Shown one piece after another: positions 22,597 to 32,476 of a DNA stretch of 64,000 nt. The DNA is taken from positions 1-64,000 of the forward strand of contig JANQNU010000040.1 in assembly GCA_028279405.1 (NCBI GenBank), given 5' to 3'. The first letter of the stretch is position 1. Each line of letters begins with the position of its first letter. A model generated the notes under the pieces. The model had not been told where the DNA came from and did not search any database. It saw only the letters and a list, made by a program, of their open reading frames with translations. The translations under genes and the position numbers were made by a program. The stretch comes from Phycisphaerae bacterium (lineage in GTDB: Bacteria > Planctomycetota > Phycisphaerae > UBA1845 > Fen-1342).

Positions 22597-24197
<1,601 letters not shown>

Positions 24198-24198
<1 letters not shown>

Positions 24199-24214
24199 AT
24201 CCAACAGTATAGCA
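24198..24214 (-). promoter_or_regulatory. Candidate extended -10 promoter for rtcR, possibly leaderless
   Basis: On the minus strand TGCTATACT is an extended -10 element, with TATACT at 24211-24206. It lies only seven bases before the ATG at 24198. Transcription would begin at or next to the start codon, and no ribosome site is visible, so a leaderless message is likely. No convincing -35 was found, as expected for an extended -10. Confidence 0.4.
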
Positions 24215-24330
24215 TCTGATACAAGAGGCTAGTCGACTGCGCCGCTGTTGAACTGTATTCGAGATCGCGAAATCGACATAACCGTATTTAAATAATGATC
24301 TTAAGAGAAATATTGCGATCGGTCAGCGTT

Positions 24331-24347
24331 CTGGAACATGGCCTGCA
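24331..24347 (+). promoter_or_regulatory. Sigma54 (-24/-12) promoter of the rsr-rtcB operon
   Basis: CTGGAACATGGCCTGCA matches the -24/-12 consensus with the invariant GG (24333-24334) and GC (24345-24346) exactly ten bases apart and good flanks (CTGG, TGCA). Transcription should start near 24358, leaving a ~36-base leader with GGAGGT before the rsr ATG. Its position downstream of a divergent sigma54 activator gene makes the call strong. It also rules out the in-frame ATG codons at 24295 and 24338, which lie before the transcript start. Confidence 0.8.
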
Positions 24348-24393: not shown

Positions 24394-25962
24394 ATGGCCA
24401 ACAAGACGCTGTTTCGATCGATCGCCGGACCGCGAATCGCGCGCACCGATACGGTCAACGCCGAGTGCGCTCCGGCTTACGCGTTGGCGCCCGAGCAGGC
24501 GCTGGCTCAGTACGCCGCGACTGGCTGCCTCAACGCGACGTTCTATGCTGGTGCCGAAATGCAGCTGAACGAGCTGCACCGACTCGCGGAGCAGGTCGAG
24601 CCGCGGTTTGTCGCCAAGACGGCCGTGTACTGTCGCGAGCGCGGGTTCATGAAGGATACACCGGCCGTGCTGTGTGCGATCCTATCGCTCCGCGCTCCGG
24701 CTTTGTTCGAGGCGGTGTTCGCGCGGGTAATCGACAACGCACGAATGCTGCGAAACTTCGTGCAGGTGATGCGTAGTGGGGCGGTCGGGCGCAAGTCGCT
24801 CGGATCGCTGCCCAAACGTCTGATTCGCGAGTGGCTGGCGGCGCGTTCCGATGAGGCCCTCTTCCGGGCGTCGGTAGGGCAGTCGCCGTCGCTGACGGAC
24901 ATTGTCCGCATGGTGCATCCGAAGCCGGCCTCGACGGCGCGTTCGGCGCTGTACGGATACCTGCTGGGACGCGACCACGATGCGACGGCGCTGCCGGGCC
25001 TGGTGCGCGAGTTTGAGGCGTTCAAGCGCTCGCCGGCCGGACGCGTGCCGGACGTTCCGTTTCAGATGCTCACGGCACTACCGCTCGAGAAGGGTGCGTG
25101 GAACCAGTTGGCCCAGCGGGCGCCGTGGCAGATGACGCGGATGAACCTCAACACCTTCGCGCGTCACGGCGTGTTCGGCAAGCGCGACCACGTACGAGCG
25201 ATAGCAGATCGGCTGCGCGATCCGGACGCAATCGCGAAGGCACGGGTGTTCCCGTATCAGTTGCTGATGGCGTACCGCGCGGCGACGGATGCGATCCCGG
25301 CCGAGATTCGCGCGGCGTTGCAGGACGCGCTCGAGATCGCGATCCAGAACGTGCCGCAGGTTGCCGGCAAGGTGTACGTGTTCCCGGACGTTTCCGGGTC
25401 GATGCATACCCCGGTGACCGGGCAGCGTCGCGGCGGCACGACGCAGGTTCGTTGTATCGACGTGGCGGCGCTGATCGCGGCCGCGGTCCTGCGACGTAAT
25501 CCGGATGCGGAGGTATTGCCGTTCGAGAGCGACGTCGTTTCGGTACGTTTGAATCCGCGCGACAGCGTGATGACCAACGCACAGAAGCTTGCAGCGCTGC
25601 CGTGGGGCGGTACCAACTGCAGTGCGCCGCTGGCCTGGCTGAACATGCGCGAGGCGCGCGGCGACCTGGTGATCTACGTCTCGGACAACGAGTCGTGGGT
25701 GGATAGCTCAGCGTACGGCCGTGGGGGGGGCGGCCGTACCGCAACAATGGAAGCGTGGGCGGACTTCAAACGCCGCAGCCCGCAGGCGCGGATGGTCTGT
25801 ATCGACATCCAGCCGAACCGGACCACGCAAGCACAGGAGCGTTCGGACATCCTGAACGTCGGCGGCTTCTCGGACAGCGTGTTCGAGATCGTCGCGGCTT
25901 ACGCCAAGGGTGAACTGGACGCAGCGCATTGGGTCGGCCGCATCGAGGCGGTCGAGCTCTGA
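24394..25962 (+). CDS. rsr: Ro60/Rsr, TROVE-domain RNA-binding ring protein
   Basis: Rsr is the bacterial orthologue of the Ro60 autoantigen. It forms a HEAT-repeat ring that binds Y RNAs on its outside and ends of damaged or misfolded RNA in its hole. The 522-residue product has the TROVE domain at residues ~25-325 (QALAQYAATGCLNATFYAG, FVAKTAVYCRERGFMKDTP, LPKRLIREWL) and a C-terminal von Willebrand A domain with the MIDAS motif DVSGS at ~332-336. The ATG at 24394 follows GGAGGT and lies after the sigma54 start site. The Y-RNA-like array begins nine bases after its stop and rtcB follows. Confidence 0.96.
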   Translation: MANKTLFRSIAGPRIARTDTVNAECAPAYALAPEQALAQYAATGCLNATFYAGAEMQLNELHRLAEQVEPRFVAKTAVYCRERGFMKDTPAVLCAILSLRAPALFEAVFARVIDNARMLRNFVQVMRSGAVGRKSLGSLPKRLIREWLAARSDEALFRASVGQSPSLTDIVRMVHPKPASTARSALYGYLLGRDHDATALPGLVREFEAFKRSPAGRVPDVPFQMLTALPLEKGAWNQLAQRAPWQMTRMNLNTFARHGVFGKRDHVRAIADRLRDPDAIAKARVFPYQLLMAYRAATDAIPAEIRAALQDALEIAIQNVPQVAGKVYVFPDVSGSMHTPVTGQRRGGTTQVRCIDVAALIAAAVLRRNPDAEVLPFESDVVSVRLNPRDSVMTNAQKLAALPWGGTNCSAPLAWLNMREARGDLVIYVSDNESWVDSSAYGRGGGGRTATMEAWADFKRRSPQARMVCIDIQPNRTTQAQERSDILNVGGFSDSVFEIVAAYAKGELDAAHWVGRIEAVEL

Positions 25963-25970
25963 TGTTCGGT

Positions 25971-26054
25971 CGGGCCGCGGACGGAATGCCGTCGGGACTA
26001 CATCGTTGAAGAAGCGTCAGTAGCGTCTCGACAAGTCTCGTCCGTCCGGGCCCG
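25971..26054 (+). ncRNA. Y-RNA-like unit 1 (minimal stem-loop, no tRNA mimic)
   Basis: An 84-base hairpin. The outer stem CGGGCC..GGACGGA (25971-25985) pairs with TCCGTCC.GGCCCG (26041-26054). Then comes the asymmetric internal loop shared by all four units: ATGCC (25986-25990) opposite AAGTCTCG (26033-26040). The inner stem GTCGGGAC (25991-25998) pairs with GTCTCGAC (26025-26032) and opens at the conserved ACTACAT into a short terminal loop with no tRNA-like arms. The loop is the presumed Rsr-binding site by analogy with Y RNAs. It begins nine bases after the rsr stop and is read in the same direction. Confidence 0.72.
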
Positions 26055-26076
26055 GGCGACGTTGGAGAGGAAGCAG

Positions 26077-26149
26077 GACCTCATGGTGAAATCGGAAATC
26101 ATGGGCGCCTACGAAGCGCCGGTTCCAGGTTCGAGTCCTGGTGAGGTCG
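26077..26149 (+). tRNA. tRNA-Arg (anticodon ACG), normal order
   Basis: A 73-base cloverleaf. The acceptor is GACCTCA/TGAGGTC (7 pairs), followed by a D arm GTGA/TCAT with GG in its loop. The anticodon stem GGCGC/GCGCC (5 pairs) carries loop CTACGAA, giving anticodon ACG. The variable region has four bases, and the T arm is CCAGG/CCTGG with loop TTCGAGT. CCA is not encoded. It sits inside the rsr-rtcB RNA array, 22 bases after Y unit 1, and its last base directly abuts the outer stem of Y unit 2. It could be a working tRNA or a stress-induced decoy or reporter for anticodon nucleases; the sequence alone cannot decide. Confidence 0.8.
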
Positions 26150-26260
26150 TCGGGGCGAATGCTCGACGGGACTACATGGTGAAGCACCTCAGACGGTGTG
26201 AAGGGTTCAAATCCCGCGCGCCCATGTGGCGCAGGTCCCGTCGGATGATTGTCGCCTCGG
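26150..26260 (+). ncRNA. Y-RNA-like unit 2 (partial tRNA mimic)
   Basis: A 111-base hairpin. The outer stem TCGGGGCGA (26150-26158) pairs with TCGCCTCGG (26252-26260). The shared internal loop is ATGCT (26159-26163) opposite GATGATTG (26244-26251). The inner stem CGACGGGAC (26164-26172) pairs perfectly with GTCCCGTCG (26235-26243). Inside are a CACC/GGTG hairpin, a T arm GGG-TTCAAAT-CCC (26203-26215) and a closed acceptor-like stem GCGCC/GGCGC (26218-26232). There is no D arm. The 5' end touches the 3' end of the tRNA-Arg, so tRNA 3' processing could create it. Confidence 0.75.
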
Positions 26261-26264
26261 ATGG

Positions 26265-26420
26265 AAGAATGTCGGGTTGCGAATGCTGGCAGGACTACAT
26301 TAACGCGCGGTTGCGGGTTCAAATCCCGCCGGGCCGGTGGCTGTTCACCATCACGTCCGTAGCTCAAATGGATAGAGCACGCGAAGCCTCTTGCCGACCC
26401 TCGTCGCGATTCGACATCTT
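26265..26420 (+). ncRNA. Y-RNA-like unit 3 (YrlA type, full permuted tRNA mimic)
   Basis: A 156-base RNA. The outer stem (26265-26282 with 26404-26420) includes GCGA/TCGC. The shared internal loop is ATGCT (26283-26287) opposite GACCCTCG (26396-26403). The inner stem GGCAGGA (26288-26294) pairs with TCTTGCC (26389-26395). The tip is a tRNA in permuted order. A CGCG/CGCG pair stands in the anticodon-stem position. T arm GCGGG-TTCAAAT-CCCGC (26313-26329) comes next, then acceptor CGGGC/GTCCG closed by a GGTG/CACC hairpin (26330-26359). TA and the D arm GCTC/GAGC (26362-26378) with GG in the loop complete it. This is the layout described for Salmonella YrlA. Confidence 0.82.
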
Positions 26421-26437
26421 GTTTGGCCCGGGGAAAA

Positions 26438-26583
26438 CCGGGCGGCGAATGCCGGTGGAACTACATGGGCTGTTAACCCGAAGGTTGCGGGTTCGAGTCC
26501 CGCCGGGTCCATTACGAATTACGGATGGGCCCGTAGCTCAAGTGGCAGAGCGCGACGTTTCGCCAACACTTGTCGCCGCCCGG
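26438..26583 (+). ncRNA. Y-RNA-like unit 4 (YrlA type, permuted tRNA mimic with Asn-like anticodon hairpin)
   Basis: A 146-base RNA. The outer stem CCGGGCGGCGA (26438-26448) pairs perfectly with 26573-26583. The internal loop is ATGCC (26449-26453) opposite AACACTTG (26565-26572). The inner stem GGTGGAA (26454-26460) pairs with TTTCGCC (26558-26564). The tip has a hairpin GGG-CTGTTAA-CCC (26467-26479) like a tRNA-Asn anticodon arm (GTT), then T arm GCGGG-TTCGAGT-CCCGC (26487-26503). Acceptor strands CGGGTCC (26504-26510) and GGGCCCG (26527-26533) pair across a 15-base linker, followed by D arm GCTC/GAGC (26536-26551). The CACTTG and CGAA strands recall the Ro-binding strands of vertebrate Y RNAs. 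Confidence 0.82.
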
Positions 26584-26763
26584 CCGGACTCAATGCCAGT
26601 CGGCGCCGCAGTGGCAACACTGCCGCGCCCTTGGCGTCCGGAGCCAACGCGCGTAGTACGAGACATGGACGGTTTTGGGAATCGGTGTCGGGTTTGCCAG
26701 GTGGCAGCCCTCCTTGGACATCGTAACGTGAAGCGCAGGCGCCGCCCGCAGCGAGAGGCAATC
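26584..26763 (+). other. Spacer before rtcB with two hairpins
   Basis: After the fourth Y-like unit come two further imperfect hairpins. The first spans 26584-26641: CCGGAC/GTCCGG outside, GCCAG/TTGGC, GGCGC/GCGCC, and GCAGTG/CACTGC closed by a GCAA tetraloop. The second spans 26683-26723 with CGGTGTC/GACATCG outside. Neither has the shared internal loop on both strands, although the first contains CAATGCC, so a decayed fifth unit is possible. No T tract follows, so they are more likely processing or stability elements than terminators. The rtcB ribosome site GAGAGG lies at the right end. Confidence 0.45.
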
Positions 26764-28269
26764 ATGACGCTCGAAGCGCAATCCAGCGAAGAGATCATCG
26801 TGACCGGCGAAGCGACCGGCATCCTTCCGGTCCGTAACGGAAAGCTGCCGCCCGTGACCGTCATCGGTACGGAGGCGATCCGCGCAACGTTCGACGCAAC
26901 GTGTCTCCAGCAGGCGCGGAACACGGCGTCTGCCCCCGGTGTATCGCGTGTCGTTCTGAATCCGGACGCGCACGTCGGATACGGTGCACCGGTTGGTAGC
27001 GTGCTGGCGTCGGATTCGCACGTGTATCCGGGTCCGGTCGGGCTCGACATCAAGTGTTCGATGAGTCTGTTGCAACTCGATGTCCCGGCCGACCAGATCG
27101 CGGACCGTCCGACCCGTCGGGCGTTGATCGATGCGATCTGCGCCCGGATTCCGACCGGCGCGGGGCGCGGCCAGCGCAGCGTGTCGAAGTCGCGACCGGT
27201 GTCGGCAGCGTTGGGGCGCCGCGCGGTTGCCGAGGGCGCTTCGAGTGCCGTGTGTCAGGCGCTCGGTATTCCGCCCGCTTGGGCAGAGCGCTGCGAGGAT
27301 GCAGGGCACGTCGGTCACGACGGGACCCGCGACGCCTTGTCAGCGCGGCTGGACTGGCTCATCGCGGGTGGCGCGTTCGAGACCTTCGAGGAGAAGATTC
27401 GTCAGTTGGGTTCCTACGGCGGCGGCAATCATTTCGGCGAGTGCGAGGTGGTTCGGCTCGTCGAGGCGGACCAGGCCGCGTTCTGCGCGAAGGTCTTCGG
27501 TCTGCGCGACCAGCACGTGGCGTTCTTGTCACATTGCGGATCGCGCGGTTTCGGGCATCATCTCGCGCAGGGCCAGTTCCGCACGCTCGAGCGCAAGTTC
27601 GAAACGTGGGGGATCCCATTGCCGGCGGGCGATCGACACCTGGTGTATGCCCCGTTGGGTACCGCCGAGGCCGACGCCTACCTCGACGACATGGCGCTCG
27701 GCGCCAACTTCGCGACTGTGAATCATCTGCTGATCAATGCGCTCGTACTCGAGGCGTTTCAGGAGGTGTTGCCGGGAACGACCGGAACGCTGGTGTATTT
27801 CATCAGCCACAACATCGCGCGGCAGGAGGTCATGGGAGCACGTCGTGTTTGGGTGCATCGTAAAGGAGCCACCCGGGCATTTCCGGCCGGCCACCCGGCG
27901 CTTGCAGAGACGCCGTTCCGCGTGACGGGTCACCCGATCCTTCTGCCTGGTAACCCGGCCGCAGGGTCGGCCGTGATGGTGGCGCGCCCGGGGGCCGAAC
28001 AGACCTGCTACAGCATCAACCACGGTGCTGGCCGACAACTGGGGCGCAAGCAGGCCATTCGGACGCTCGACCAGCAGGCCGTCGACGAACAGCTCGAGGT
28101 GCAGGACATCCTGACCAACTGTCGACGTTATCCGCGTGACGAGGCCCCGGCGGCGTACAAGGACTTCGACGAGGTGTTGCAGTCCGTGCAATCGGCGGAC
28201 CTCGCGACGACCGTTGCTCGACTCGATGCACGGTTCGTGATCAAGGACGCCGACAAGGCCGACGACTAG
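26764..28269 (+). CDS. rtcB: RtcB, 3'-phosphate/5'-hydroxyl RNA ligase
   Basis: RtcB joins RNA 2',3'-cyclic phosphate or 3'-phosphate ends to 5'-hydroxyl ends using GTP and Mn2+, the ends left by anticodon nucleases. The 501-residue protein keeps the metal and guanylylation residues: DAHVGYG (residues 68-74), GLDIKC with the metal cysteine at 98, SYGGGNHFGE, SHCGSRGFGHH, SHNIARQE, HRKGATRAFPAGHP, and the nucleophile histidine in SINHGAGR. The ATG at 26764 follows GAGAGG. The frame is open back to 26062, but that stretch is the structured RNA array. It is co-transcribed with rsr and the Y-like RNAs, as in known RNA-repair operons. Confidence 0.97.
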   Translation: MTLEAQSSEEIIVTGEATGILPVRNGKLPPVTVIGTEAIRATFDATCLQQARNTASAPGVSRVVLNPDAHVGYGAPVGSVLASDSHVYPGPVGLDIKCSMSLLQLDVPADQIADRPTRRALIDAICARIPTGAGRGQRSVSKSRPVSAALGRRAVAEGASSAVCQALGIPPAWAERCEDAGHVGHDGTRDALSARLDWLIAGGAFETFEEKIRQLGSYGGGNHFGECEVVRLVEADQAAFCAKVFGLRDQHVAFLSHCGSRGFGHHLAQGQFRTLERKFETWGIPLPAGDRHLVYAPLGTAEADAYLDDMALGANFATVNHLLINALVLEAFQEVLPGTTGTLVYFISHNIARQEVMGARRVWVHRKGATRAFPAGHPALAETPFRVTGHPILLPGNPAAGSAVMVARPGAEQTCYSINHGAGRQLGRKQAIRTLDQQAVDEQLEVQDILTNCRRYPRDEAPAAYKDFDEVLQSVQSADLATTVARLDARFVIKDADKADD

Positions 28270-28361: not shown

Positions 28362-29180
28362 ATGAACGAGTTGATTCAGCGTCAGTTCGAACGGATCGGG
28401 GCCCGGGTCGTCGTCCGGGCCCCGGATGGCCGCCGTCGCGCGTTCGGTGCGGCACCGGTCGGGCTCTCCGGACTCGCACTCGACGTAAGGCGGGACCGGT
28501 CCGGCGAATACTTCGACTTGGCCGTCGATCGGTTGGAAATCGCACTTCAGGTGATCGATCTGCGTCCGCGCGACCGACACCTGCTGTTGATGTCACGCAG
28601 TCTTAACGACGGTGCCAAGGACAAGTTTCTTTGCGGACACGACGAGCGTCACTGGTTCGTCGCCGCCGTGCCGCGCGGGCCGGCATCCAGTGTCGCGGGT
28701 GCGATGGAAGCGCTGAAGCCTGTCGCGGTGCAGACCGAACAGTCGCGCCGCCGGGTCCGTCGCAAGCATCGCAACAGCCGTCGCAACGCCGCGTTCGTGC
28801 GGCAGGGGGAGTGGTTCTTCGTGCCTGTCGGGGACGCGATCATTCCCGAGACCACGATGTTGCAGGACGAGCCGTTGCGGCGCGGCGGTGGCAAGGCGCA
28901 CTGGGCCGAGTACGTCGTGCGCCTCGGCGGCGAGGCTGTCTACGTGAACCGCCGTTGTCCCAACGGACTGCGGCCGACGGAGTACGGTGCGCTTCTCGGC
29001 CGCAATCCGAAGGCCCGCCAATGGCGCTGGCAGGTGCTGCGTCGCGACGCGCGGGTCTACGCCAAGGGGTGCATTCGACATCCGGATCACCAGACGATCG
29101 TGCTGCCGGGTTGGCACCGCGTCGTGCTCAATCGAGAATCCGAAGCGCCCGGGATGCGGCAGGTCGCGTTTCTTGACTGA
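28362..29180 (+). CDS. Unknown protein of the RNA-repair operon
   Basis: I do not recognise this 272-residue protein. The ATG follows AAAGGGGG at good spacing. The N-terminal ~75 residues are beta-strand-like (ARVVVRAPDGRRRAFG, LLLMSRSLNDGAKDKFLCGHDERHWFVAAVP). A very basic linker (QSRRRVRRKHRNSRRNAAF, residues ~126-144) follows. Then comes a second beta-rich domain (GEWFFVPVGDAIIP, KAHWAEYVVRLGGEAVYVNRR, VYAKGCIRHPDHQTIVLPGWHRV). The basic linker and the repeated aromatic/His pattern suggest RNA binding. No membrane or export signal is seen. It lies 92 bases after rtcB in the same direction, so a role in RNA repair is the working inference. Confidence 0.75.
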   Translation: MNELIQRQFERIGARVVVRAPDGRRRAFGAAPVGLSGLALDVRRDRSGEYFDLAVDRLEIALQVIDLRPRDRHLLLMSRSLNDGAKDKFLCGHDERHWFVAAVPRGPASSVAGAMEALKPVAVQTEQSRRRVRRKHRNSRRNAAFVRQGEWFFVPVGDAIIPETTMLQDEPLRRGGGKAHWAEYVVRLGGEAVYVNRRCPNGLRPTEYGALLGRNPKARQWRWQVLRRDARVYAKGCIRHPDHQTIVLPGWHRVVLNRESEAPGMRQVAFLD

Positions 29181-29290: not shown

Positions 29291-30151
29291 ATGAGCAATT
29301 ACGAGCGAATCGCAGCACTCATTCGACACCTCGAGGTCAACCGCCTCGAGCAACCCAGCTTGCGCGACCTGGCGGACGTGGCGGGATTGAGTCCGTATCA
29401 CCTGCAGCGGCTCTTTTCGCAATGGGTGGGCTTGTCGCCGAAGTCGTTTCTCCAGCAACTGACGCTACACGACGCCAAATCGCGCCTGTTGAGTGGGCAG
29501 AGCGTCTTGCAGGCGGCGCTCGACGCGGGGCTGTCCGGGCCAGGCCGACTGCACGACCTGTGTATCACGCTCGAGGCGGCCTCCCCGGGCGAGATCAAGT
29601 CCGGCGGTGACGGATGGTCGATCCGGGCCGGATTCGCCGACTCCGTGTTGGGACACTGTCTGGTCGCCGAAGGGCCGCGCGGAATCTGTCATTTGTCGTT
29701 CCTACCGGCCGCGGACACGTTGGTGGGCGAGTCGCTGATACGAGACGATTGGCCACGAGCACGGATTCGCTGGGATGACGAGATTGCGACGCGGGTAGTG
29801 GCCCAGGCGCTCGGCGGCGCCTCCACGCAGCCGGGCGGCGAGCGGGTGCGGCTGCGATGCTTTGTTCGCGGAACGGACTTTCAGGTGCGTGTCTGGCGCG
29901 CCTTGTTGCAGATTCCGTACGGCAGGCTCGCGAGCTATGGGCAGGTGGCTGCCGCGATCGGTGCTCCACGCGCCGGGCGCGCGGTCGGTTCGGCCGTGGG
30001 CCGGAATGCAATCGGCGTGCTCATTCCGTGTCATCGGGTGATTCGCGAGACGGGTGTAATCACTCAATACCGATGGGGAGCCCATCGAAAACGCGCATTG
30101 ATCGCGTTGGAATCGTCCGAGGCGACGCCGCGCTGGTCCTCGTCGGCCTAG
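29291..30151 (+). CDS. AraC-type HTH fused to O6-methylguanine methyltransferase (Ada-like, no zinc domain)
   Basis: A 286-residue fusion. Residues ~5-90 are an AraC-family double helix-turn-helix (LRDLADVAGLSPYHLQRLFSQWVGLSPKSFLQ). Residues ~105-275 are a suicide alkyltransferase with the active-site motif IPCHRVI and the preceding FQVRVWRALLQIPYGRLASYGQV block. It lacks the N-terminal Cys4 zinc domain through which E. coli Ada senses methyl phosphotriesters, so it cannot be switched in that way. It would remove O6-alkylguanine from DNA and perhaps control genes. It stands between rtcB and rtcA, 110 bases after the unknown gene, apparently inside the sigma54 operon. Confidence 0.92.
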   Translation: MSNYERIAALIRHLEVNRLEQPSLRDLADVAGLSPYHLQRLFSQWVGLSPKSFLQQLTLHDAKSRLLSGQSVLQAALDAGLSGPGRLHDLCITLEAASPGEIKSGGDGWSIRAGFADSVLGHCLVAEGPRGICHLSFLPAADTLVGESLIRDDWPRARIRWDDEIATRVVAQALGGASTQPGGERVRLRCFVRGTDFQVRVWRALLQIPYGRLASYGQVAAAIGAPRAGRAVGSAVGRNAIGVLIPCHRVIRETGVITQYRWGAHRKRALIALESSEATPRWSSSA

Positions 30152-30187
30152 CGGTGAGCTGGAGTTGATAATGAAGGTAGGGCTACG

Positions 30188-30865
30188 ATGAAGATTGTCA
30201 CACTCGTCTATCCGGGAGTAACGCCGCTCGATCTGGTGGGGCCATTGCAGGTCTGGAGCAGCTGGCCCGGCGCGCATGTCGAAATCGCAGCGAGGACGCT
30301 CGACCCGTTGGCGACGGACACGGTTATGCAGATCGTCCCTACTCACACTTACACGACCGCGGCCGCCGATCCCGACATTCTCTTTGTACCGGGCGGAACT
30401 GACGGTACCTTGGCAGCGATCGCCGATGACGGATTGCTGGCCTTCGTACGCGATCGTGGCGGGCGCGCCGGCTGGGTTACAAGTGTCTGTACGGGCGCGC
30501 TCGTGCTGGGAGCGGCTGGGTTGCTGAGAGGCTATGAAAGTACGACGCACTGGCTTGTTCTGGACGAACTCAAACGATTCGGCGCTCGACCGGTCAAGGC
30601 GCGCTGGGTGATCGATCGGAACCGGGCAGCGGGCGGAGGCGTCAGTGCGGGCATCGACTTCGGCCTCGCGCTGATGGCGCGCATCGTCGGTGAGGACCAC
30701 GCGCGCATGACTCAGCTGGCGATCGAGTATGCGCCGGACCCGCCATTCCGCTCGGGAACGCCGGACGAGGCCCGGCCGGAGACCCGCGAGGCGGTGCGCA
30801 GCGCGTTTCGTGGTTTTGTTAGCGCGCTCGACCAGATGACCGCGGTGCTGGCCGACGATAAGTAA
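30188..30865 (+). CDS. DJ-1/PfpI family protein, isonitrile-hydratase-like
   Basis: A 225-residue class-I glutamine-amidotransferase-like protein. It begins MKIVTLVYPGVTPLDLVGPLQVW, as in isonitrile hydratase and GATase1 domains of AraC regulators. The nucleophile-elbow cysteine is in TSVCTGALVLGAAGLL, and the family glutamate and DFVGP-like segment are present as LDLVGPLQ. No AraC HTH follows. Family members act as isonitrile hydratases, glyoxalases or deglycases, so the substrate is open. It starts 36 bases after the Ada-like gene in the RNA-repair operon, which suggests a stress or damage role. Confidence 0.88.
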   Translation: MKIVTLVYPGVTPLDLVGPLQVWSSWPGAHVEIAARTLDPLATDTVMQIVPTHTYTTAAADPDILFVPGGTDGTLAAIADDGLLAFVRDRGGRAGWVTSVCTGALVLGAAGLLRGYESTTHWLVLDELKRFGARPVKARWVIDRNRAAGGGVSAGIDFGLALMARIVGEDHARMTQLAIEYAPDPPFRSGTPDEARPETREAVRSAFRGFVSALDQMTAVLADDK

Positions 30866-30959
30866 TCCGAGCGTTGCGCGCCGGCCCGTACACGTGGTTC
30901 AAATTGCGATGGCCAATTCGGCTTCGCTCGATACGCTTGGGGATCGACCGAGGGGACCA

Positions 30960-31460
30960 GTGCAGGAGCGCCGCGAAAACGAACAGTACTTCTTCGACAG
31001 GCCGACGATCCTCGTGCTGGCGGACATGCTGGCGACGTTCGAGCGGCCCTGTGTGGTTTGTGCTCCGCTGGTGGGGATCGAGCTGGAACAGCGCGGCAAG
31101 GACGTGACGATCCTGGATATTGACGAGCGGTTTCGCACCTGTCGGGGCTATGTTCACTGGGACTTGAATCGGCCGGTGTCGCTCGACCGGCAATTCGGGG
31201 TGATCTTCTGCGACCCGCCGTTCTTCAATGTGTCGCTCCGGCAGCTCTTCTTGGCGCTGCGCTTGGTGGCCGGTTACAACTTATCGCAACCGATGGCGGT
31301 GAGTTTTCTCGAGCGGCGTGCGAAGCGGATAATGGCGACATTTGCGCCGTTCGCATTACAGCCGACCGCTATTCGGCTGGGCTACCGTGCGGTGACGGCG
31401 TGTGGCCGGAATGAAATTCGATTGTTCAGCAATTTCGTGGTGAGTGGGGGGGAACAATGA
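30960..31460 (+). CDS. DPPF-motif methyltransferase (N6-adenine/EEF1A-lysine methyltransferase-like)
   Basis: A small Rossmann methyltransferase with the catalytic motif CDPPFF, the mark of the PF10237-type family that includes N6-adenine and eEF1A lysine methyltransferases. Other family features are the opening NEQYFFDRPTILVLADML, the Ado-Met loop CVVCAPLVGIELEQRG, and DITLD-like VTILDIDERF. The GTG at 30960 is preferred because GAGGGG precedes it; GTG 30894 or ATG 30909 would add 17-22 residues lacking family similarity. The stop overlaps the rtcA start (ATGA), so the two are translationally coupled. No restriction enzyme is nearby, which argues against a restriction-modification role. The target (RNA, DNA or protein) is unknown. 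Confidence 0.8.
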   Translation: MQERRENEQYFFDRPTILVLADMLATFERPCVVCAPLVGIELEQRGKDVTILDIDERFRTCRGYVHWDLNRPVSLDRQFGVIFCDPPFFNVSLRQLFLALRLVAGYNLSQPMAVSFLERRAKRIMATFAPFALQPTAIRLGYRAVTACGRNEIRLFSNFVVSGGEQ

Positions 31461-32476
31461 TCGTAATTGACGGATCACAGGGCGAGGGCGGCGGACAGGT
31501 CCTGCGGTCGTCGTTGGCACTATCGCTCGTGACGGGCCAGCCGTTCACGATCCATGGAATCCGCGCCGGCCGCGACAAGCCCGGGCTGCTGCGCCAGCAT
31601 CTGACCGCGGTTCAGGCGGCCGCGGAGGTGGGCGGGGCGCGTGTCTCGGGCGCGGCGCTGCGGAGCTGCGAGCTCACATTCGAGCCGGGCAGGCCGGCGG
31701 GAGGGGCGTACCACTTCTCGGTGGGGACCGCTGGCAGCGCCACGCTGGTCCTGCAAACGGTGCTTCCGGCCCTGCTTTGCGCGGACGCACCGACCACGCT
31801 ACGGCTGGAAGGCGGTACGCACAATCCGTGGGCGCCGCCGTTCGACTTTCTGGTGCAGGCGTTCCTGCCGCTGATCAATCGGATGGGGCCCACCGTCAAC
31901 GCGACACTTGTCAGGCCGGGCTTCTATCCGGCTGGAGGCGGCCGGTTCGACGTCGCCATTACGCCCGCCCCGGCATTGCAACCAATCGAGCTGCTCGATC
32001 GTGGGGCGGTCGAAAGAGTGAGCGCCGTAGCGCGCGTCGCGCACTTGCCGCGAATCATCGCCGAACGGGAGCTGCAGGTCGTTCGGCGAAAGCTCGGCCT
32101 GTCCCAGGATGCGCTGACGGTCGAGGAGGTGGACGGATCCGCGGGTCCGGGGAACATCCTGACGATCGCCGTCCAGTCCGAGCAACTGACCGAGGTCTTT
32201 ACCGGGTTCGGCGAGCGACGGACGCCGGCCGAAGCCGTCGCGGAAAACGCCGTGCAGCAGGTTCGAAAGTACCTCGCGAAACCCGTCGCCGCAGGTGAGT
32301 TCCTGACCGACCAGTTGTTGATCCCGTTGGCACTGGCAGGAGGAGGCGCGTTCGGTACCCTGGGGCTCTCGCGACACGCCCAAACGAACATCGCGGTCAT
32401 CCGGTCGTTTCTCGACGTGGTTTTCGAAACTGAGCGCGCGCCGACCGGCTACATCGTTCGAACACGATCCGGCTAG
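31457..32476 (+). CDS. rtcA: RNA 3'-terminal phosphate cyclase RtcA
   Basis: RtcA uses ATP to convert an RNA 3'-phosphate to the 2',3'-cyclic phosphate that RtcB can ligate. At 339 residues it has the family length. Visible motifs are DGSQGEGGGQVLRSSLALS at the N-terminus, RAGRDKPGLLRQHLTAV, GFYPAGGG, and the adenylylated histidine in LSRHAQTN (residue 307). It is the last gene of the operon that begins with rsr, coupled by ATGA to the methyltransferase gene. In E. coli and Salmonella rtcA lies next to rtcB; here four extra genes stand between them. Confidence 0.96.
   Translation: MIVIDGSQGEGGGQVLRSSLALSLVTGQPFTIHGIRAGRDKPGLLRQHLTAVQAAAEVGGARVSGAALRSCELTFEPGRPAGGAYHFSVGTAGSATLVLQTVLPALLCADAPTTLRLEGGTHNPWAPPFDFLVQAFLPLINRMGPTVNATLVRPGFYPAGGGRFDVAITPAPALQPIELLDRGAVERVSAVARVAHLPRIIAERELQVVRRKLGLSQDALTVEEVDGSAGPGNILTIAVQSEQLTEVFTGFGERRTPAEAVAENAVQQVRKYLAKPVAAGEFLTDQLLIPLALAGGGAFGTLGLSRHAQTNIAVIRSFLDVVFETERAPTGYIVRTRSG

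Follow-up and report, generated by a model that had tools for sequence, protein, structure and literature searches.

Background

RNA repair by RtcB and RtcA and the replacement of tRNAs are generally treated as distinct responses to anticodon nucleases, the latter known mainly from phages. The activator RtcR is switched on by 5' tRNA halves with a cyclic phosphate, the best of those tried being derived from tRNA-Leu(UAG) (PMC7790460). Colicin D cuts tRNA-Arg, and the E. coli operon is activated by colicin D (cited in PMC7790460); for the tRNA-like part of YrlA, Hughes et al. propose a role as a decoy or competitor (PMC7790460). For phage tRNAs with altered anticodon loops, an escape from cleavage by anticodon nucleases has been proposed (van den Berg et al. 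2023, PMC10264068), and the tRNAs, RtcB and TROVE/Ro60-like proteins of jumbo phages have been proposed to counter attack on translation (PMC7824862). In Anabaena, the trn operon is stress-induced and is repressed together with rtcB by TrcR (PMC10272220).

The locus described here resembles the Salmonella rsr-yrlBA-rtcBA operon (Hughes et al. 2020, PMC7790460) in the divergent rtcR, the sigma-54 box, rsr, Y RNAs, rtcB and rtcA, but differs in that extra genes separate rtcB from rtcA. Furthermore, the Salmonella operon as named in PMC7790460 includes no tRNA gene, whereas here a complete tRNA-Arg(ACG) gene lies among four Y RNA units.

Organization of the RtcR operon

The window, that is, the whole 64-kb stretch of DNA analyzed, comes from a genome (G000) of 5.63 Mb in 92 contigs that is 95.5% complete. 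On the minus strand, positions 22597-24204 encode RtcR, a sigma-54 activator with an RtcR (CARF-type) sensor domain (PF06956, 276 bits; Sigma54_activat). Divergently, on the plus strand, a sigma-54 -24/-12 box, TGGAAC-ATGGC-CTGCA (TGGAACATGGCCTGCA), at 24332-24347 lies 46 nt before the likely start of rsr (Ro60/TROVE-vWA; 24394-25962; PF25045, PF05731); the rsr reading frame opens at 24295, yet alignments of homologues begin at residue 33-34, which makes 24394 the likely start. Further along the same strand are rtcB, encoding the RNA ligase (26764-28269; PF01139, 353 bits), a conserved operon protein of unassigned family (28362-29180; relatives 46-52% identical), a PF10237 N6-adenine methylase-like protein (30894-31460) and rtcA, encoding the RNA 3'-phosphate cyclase (31457-32476; PF01137, 252 bits). 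The locus thus combines the divergent rtcR, sigma-54 box, rtcB and rtcA of an RtcR-regulated RNA repair operon, and the tRNA gene is located between rtcR and rtcB, downstream of the sigma-54 box and on the operon strand.

The 272-residue protein adjoining rtcB matched nothing in Pfam, NCBIfam, PADLOC or PHROGs, and its AlphaFold model (pLDDT 57) is too weak to place its fold. It contains many invariant Arg, His and Trp residues, and the genes for its relatives (46-52%) adjoin those for the methylase and RtcA in genus g31 and lie within tRNA arrays of Acidobacteria (L093, L094). The segment between rtcB and rtcA (29291-31460) encodes an AraC/O6-methylguanine-DNA methyltransferase, a DJ-1/PfpI protein and the PF10237 methylase, mixing DNA-alkylation repair with RNA repair; the PF10237 methylase also adjoins rtcA in L058/L159, L297 and L310.

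A complete tRNA-Arg(ACG) gene within the Y RNA array

The single tRNA detected by ARAGORN in the whole window is tRNA-Arg(ACG) at 26077-26149 on the plus strand, an extra copy with a virus-type body (GUGA D-stem, A37 and a 4-nt variable loop) and no encoded CCA. This is a real, complete gene. It scores 53.8 bits against the Rfam tRNA model (cut-off 29), and its stems are fully paired (7/7, 4/4, 5/5 and 5/5), so that ARAGORN, Rfam and the stem check all bear out the fully paired cloverleaf of the sequence-only reading. The tertiary bases are kept (U8-A14, A15-U48, G18G19, A20 and a purine at 73), and the T-loop and anticodon loop are as expected for a functional tRNA-Arg(ACG). The identity bases recognized by ArgRS under the E. 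coli rules (A20, C35, G36 and purine 73) are all present and are identical in the housekeeping copy. The missing CCA is uninformative because nearly all tRNAs of this genome likewise lack it in the encoded sequence. ARAGORN can miscall Y units as tRNAs, and a tRNA-Gly(ACC) that it reported in L175/L129 was dismissed as a false call on a Y unit. The converse identification, of the operon tRNA as a Y unit, was rejected as well: it has the linear layout of a tRNA, complete with acceptor stem and anticodon arm, and there is no RF02553 match at 26077-26149.

Just upstream of the tRNA lies Y RNA unit 1 (25975-26050; fold z -2.4), which is minimal and contains no tRNA-like module, and downstream follow unit 2 (26150-26260), with an outer stem formed by 26150-26158 and 26252-26260, unit 3 (26276-26413) and the YrlA unit 4 (26442-26582), all on the plus strand. 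The score of unit 2 against RF02553 is weak (21 bits, sub-threshold, at 26152-26261) because only a T-arm-like module is present; unit 3, with T- and D-arm-like modules, reaches 66.6 bits, just below the 69-bit cut-off, and unit 4 exceeds it with 71.4 bits. The array (25975-26582) appears graded, from unit 1 without a tRNA-like part through the T-arm of unit 2 to the permuted T-arm and D-arm of units 3 and 4.

The discriminator base of the tRNA (26149) directly abuts the outer stem of unit 2, which folds from 26150 to 26260, exactly as first read from the sequence. The further suggestion that tRNA 3' processing sets the 5' end of the Y RNA is possible for the window but finds no conserved counterpart: the order unit 1 - tRNA - unit 2 is common to three genera, but the spacing between the tRNA and unit 2 is 0 nt in the window, 1 nt in L178 and 18 nt in L173. 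Given these spacings, the contact was dropped as a conserved processing device.

The operon tRNA is an extra copy

Among the tRNA matches of the genome, gathered both by search and by stretches (52, of which 51 are above the Rfam cut-off), a canonical housekeeping tRNA-Arg(ACG) was identified on another contig (G000:C66:2909-2982), and hence the genome does not depend on the operon tRNA. This count of tRNA-Arg(ACG) genes, which the sequence-only reading had proposed as a check, shows that the operon tRNA is an extra copy and not the sole or main ACG gene of the genome. The same arrangement holds for all 13 genomes whose operon Arg(ACG/GCG) tRNA is well formed, namely, eight with Arg(ACG) and the five of genus g31, where the anticodon is GCG. 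A housekeeping Arg(ACG) gene of the TAGCTCA type lies outside the operon in all 13, as it does in G366, where the operon copy is degenerate. A gene that is both the only copy and driven by a separate promoter, the case that the earlier reading had set against its own proposal, is not what was found, given the copy on C66, the lack of a sigma-70-like site near the operon tRNA in a crude scan and the sigma-54 box upstream. No terminator was found in 25900-26800, where the tRNA and the operon genes are on the same strand, and the operon tRNA is predicted to be transcribed from the sigma-54 promoter.

The same genome contains three tRNA-Leu genes (UAA; tandem CAG and GAG; L045, L049) without a long variable arm, which coexist with ordinary long-arm tRNA-Leu genes. 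Similar short tRNA-Leu genes are present in the arrays of L073, L083, L167 and L293.

Virus-type sequence of the operon tRNA

The best match of the operon tRNA among the tRNAs of its own genome is 68% identical overall, so that its initial description as a normal tRNA holds for shape (stems and tertiary bases) but not for sequence type. The D-stem is GUGA/UCAU in the operon copy compared with GCUC/GAGC in the housekeeping copy. In the core, from base 8 to the T-loop, the operon tRNA shares 62% identity both with the closest housekeeping copy of the class and with the closest of 29 copies from other phyla, compared with 78% for the closest of 96 viral tRNA-Arg(ACG), a sample selected by anticodon and T-loop only and not by likeness to the window. 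The GTGAAA start of the D-arm was found in 19 of the 110 members of the viral sample. The pattern of D-arm and variable loop that defines family A (GUGA D-arm) matched 24 viral contigs, each with a fitting tRNA-Arg, which in most of these contigs is one of 6 to 30 tRNAs; among 199 planctomycete genomes, the window alone matched. D-stem counts for the housekeeping and control copies were set aside as circular, since the patterns by which these copies were found already required TAG..CA; the comparison instead relies on the complete tRNA set of the genome and on the 199-genome pattern search.

In trees, which were built on about 53 positions and give neighbours rather than firm histories, the operon Arg tRNAs were nearest to viral or other operon tRNAs, and in no case was the housekeeping copy of the same genome the nearest. 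A covariance model of the family, run against 397 genomes of the class, placed at the top the three rsr-operon copies from which it was built (94-98 bits), followed by the tRNA-Arg(GCG) of genus g31 (77-85 bits), which is 85% identical to the window tRNA and has a different anticodon, and then by tRNAs in G233 and G198, on short contigs without a recognizable operon. The operon Arg tRNAs of family f10 (G317, G276, G182) keep the GCUC D-stem and are about equally close to one bacterial control and to viral tRNAs. Direct BLAST of the operon tRNA against isolated phages gave partial matches only, and the viral likeness therefore rests on IMG/VR contigs. By its GUGA/UCAY D-stem and its nearest sequences, we class the operon tRNA as virus-type, a likeness that may reflect common descent.

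The anticodon loop differs as well. Base 37 is A in the operon copy and G in the housekeeping copy of the window genome; in the class, 26 of 28 housekeeping ACG copies carry G37, and viral ACG tRNAs have A37 in 84 of 110. The idea of A37 as a viral hallmark was nevertheless rejected because many bacterial phyla have this base in their housekeeping copies, with A37 being usual in Acidobacteria and Proteobacteria. For the same reason, only the contrast within genomes was used, and the base change does not by itself establish nuclease resistance. With the degenerate Arg(ACG) of L171 excluded, A37 is present in 7 of 8 operon ACG copies and in none of the 8 host copies of the same genomes (Fisher 0.0014, sign test 0.016, both uncorrected for kinship).

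Recurrent tRNAs in RtcR operons

RtcR was found, at E below 1e-100, in 37 of the 397 genomes of the class, and a census of the stretches from rtcR to the next rtcB or rtcA covered 36 loci, 76.9 kb in total. ARAGORN identified 51 tRNAs in 16 of these loci, all on the operon strand, compared with 0.77 expected from genome density (p about 7e-18 before allowing for kinship, which inflates this significance). The 16 loci span 13 genera, although four belong to one genus; among the 51 tRNAs, one is degenerate (G366) and a few have no clear anticodon. Many of the genomes are fragmented drafts, and the operon of G174 was pieced together from two contigs between which its rsr gene is split. In most loci, a sigma-54 box (TGGCAC-N5-NTGCW) is located between rtcR and the first operon gene, and such boxes also precede operons in which tRNAs come first (L295-L298, L302).

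The RtcR operons of relatives often contain tRNAs, from one to nine per operon and of many isotypes, most commonly Arg and Leu; 12 of the 16 tRNA-bearing loci include Arg(ACG or GCG). At least three Arg tRNA lineages have been recruited: the window type in G000, G174, G105 and g31, a type located just upstream of rtcB in G317, G276 and G182, and further lineages in G379 and, outside the class, in G654. In genus g31, the array between rtcR and rtcB reads Arg(GCG)-Pro-Gln-Leu-Leu; it is complete in four genomes, and in the fifth (G375) it is split over contigs, with the tRNAs apart from rtcR. The operon tRNA is dispensable and can be lost, given that 20 of the 36 loci have no tRNA and that the closest relative (G074) has only a decayed tRNA in the matching slot (L159:4473-4543, 24.4 bits). 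In this remnant, the D- and T-arms are partly kept and the anticodon arm is broken.

Phages and larger tRNA arrays

On an 18-kb phage contig (L483), nine tRNAs, rsr, 19 tRNAs including Arg(ACG) and an RtcB-family gene follow one another; the contig also encodes an antirepressor (Ant) and a Sak4-like protein. Among viral RtcB proteins, none close to the type in the window was found. Four further viral contigs carry rsr (L481, L482, L484 and L485; 40-49% identical, with L481 and L482 matching the query identically), and directly downstream of rsr there are two Y-like motifs in L484 and a tRNA-Thr in L485. In Acidobacteria, about 10-33 tRNAs of most isotypes are located directly upstream of rsr, and in the three genomes checked, the tRNA total is 61-65. 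No rtcR was found near these acidobacterial loci (L060, L062, L072, L073, L076, L079, L080, L083, L084, L086, L093, L094 and L123).

A proposed damage-induced spare tRNA and its alternatives

The explanation towards which we lean, with somewhat better than even confidence, is that the operon tRNA serves as a damage-induced spare and is probably cut less readily than the host's own tRNA by the nuclease behind the damage. In the mechanism that we infer, which includes induction, processing, charging, nuclease tolerance and a direction of transfer, broken host tRNAs with 2',3'-cyclic phosphate ends would activate RtcR, as is known in Salmonella and E. coli. RtcR and sigma-54 would then transcribe rsr, the Y units, the tRNA, rtcB and, further on, rtcA, in keeping with the observed box and gene order. 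The tRNA would be excised from the transcript, gain its CCA, be charged with arginine and read CGN codons while RtcA and RtcB mend the damaged tRNAs. In the least certain step, the nuclease that cut the host tRNA would recognize the operon tRNA poorly, as suggested by a body and anticodon loop that differ from those of the host copy and match virus-borne tRNAs. The probable source of the operon tRNA is a virus or a shared mobile tRNA array, an origin to which at least one phage contig joining tRNAs, rsr and rtcB points.

The sequence-only reading had left open whether this gene is a replacement, a decoy or a built-in damage sensor. The findings favour replacement: the cloverleaf and the ArgRS determinants are intact, the gene is an extra copy with a virus-type body, recruitment is recurrent, and relatives carry up to nine tRNAs. 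Such mending and replacing at once would match the function suggested for the phage tRNAs with altered anticodon loops (PMC10264068) and has a parallel in the Anabaena trn operon (PMC10272220). A decoy, or competitive inhibitor, would be an expendable target that occupies an anticodon nuclease and spares the host tRNA, and the location of the tRNA inside the Y array, its ACG anticodon shared with the host copy and the role proposed for the tRNA-like part of YrlA (PMC7790460) are all compatible with this. Such a decoy, however, should copy the host loop, whereas the matching tRNA body carries GCG in five relatives and operon and host copies disagree at base 37 in 7 of 8 pairs, observations that weaken the sensor as well; a decoy also needs none of the intact acceptor stem, A20 of the D-loop and discriminator, and we consider it unlikely. 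The sensor, a tRNA cut first so that its 5' half feeds RtcR, is highly improbable, even though RtcR binds 5' tRNA halves with cyclic phosphate (PMC7790460) and Arg and Leu are the commonest isotypes in RtcR operons: a sensor of this kind would be made mainly after induction, and housekeeping tRNAs would be far more abundant as ligands.

There are two further alternatives. The tRNA could belong with Rsr and the Y RNAs, as their partner or cargo: a tRNA-shaped RNA for assembly, processing or routing within the Ro60 complex or for setting the ends of Y unit 2, as might be suggested by the order Y1 - tRNA - Y2 in three genera, the spacing of only 0 or 1 nt between tRNA and Y2 in two of these genera, and the tRNA arrays that flank rsr in Acidobacteria and on the phage contig L483. 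We give this little credence because genus g31 and others have this tRNA family in RtcR operons without rsr nearby, and the spacing in L173 is 18 nt. Equally poor odds attach to a hitch-hiker that landed by chance via a virus or integrating element and brings no specific benefit. The virus-type sequence and the decayed remnant in the nearest relative speak for such a chance arrival; the presence of tRNAs in 16 of 36 loci, all 51 on one strand, the separate recruitment of at least three Arg tRNA lineages and the complete pairing kept in the operon tRNA speak against it.

Beyond the window, it is conceivable, although we hold this only tentatively and would sooner bet against it, that virus-type tRNAs have been captured by bacteria and incorporated into the tRNA-damage regulon on repeated occasions, with a single RtcR signal then leading both to the repair of cut tRNAs and to their replacement by versions that escape recognition by the nuclease. 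Under this broader scenario, a tRNA - rsr - tRNA - rtcB cassette would be exchanged among phages and bacteria; its smallest version would be the lone tRNA-Arg(ACG) of the window, and its largest the arrays of 10-33 tRNAs next to rsr in Acidobacteria. Virus-type tRNAs in RtcR operons, in a class where tRNAs of some kind are present in about 4 of 10 loci, would unite repair and replacement under one damage sensor. The isotypes in the operons, mostly Arg and Leu, would then point to the tRNAs that are being cut and hence provide a clue to what the operon protects against.

Comparison with known spare tRNAs

Spare tRNAs are already known from phages and from the Anabaena trn operon; the variant described here is their location inside an RtcR regulon, for which we do not claim priority. 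Phage tRNAs (PMC10264068) share with the operon tRNA the character of extra tRNAs with changed anticodon loops, and the D-arm class of the window is found on viral contigs too, but the window copy lies in a bacterial chromosome contig, together with a bacterial damage-responsive activator. The Anabaena trn operon (PMC10272220) is similar in consisting of silent or induced extra tRNAs under regulation shared with rtcB; it differs in comprising 26 tRNAs on a megaplasmid, in being controlled by a repressor in place of the activator RtcR and in the unlinked position of rtcB, and rsr or Y RNA is not described. The sets of jumbo phages (PMC7824862) combine the same components, tRNAs, RtcB and a Ro60-like protein, and are described as features of phage genomes, whereas in L483 and in the RtcR operons these components are physically joined.
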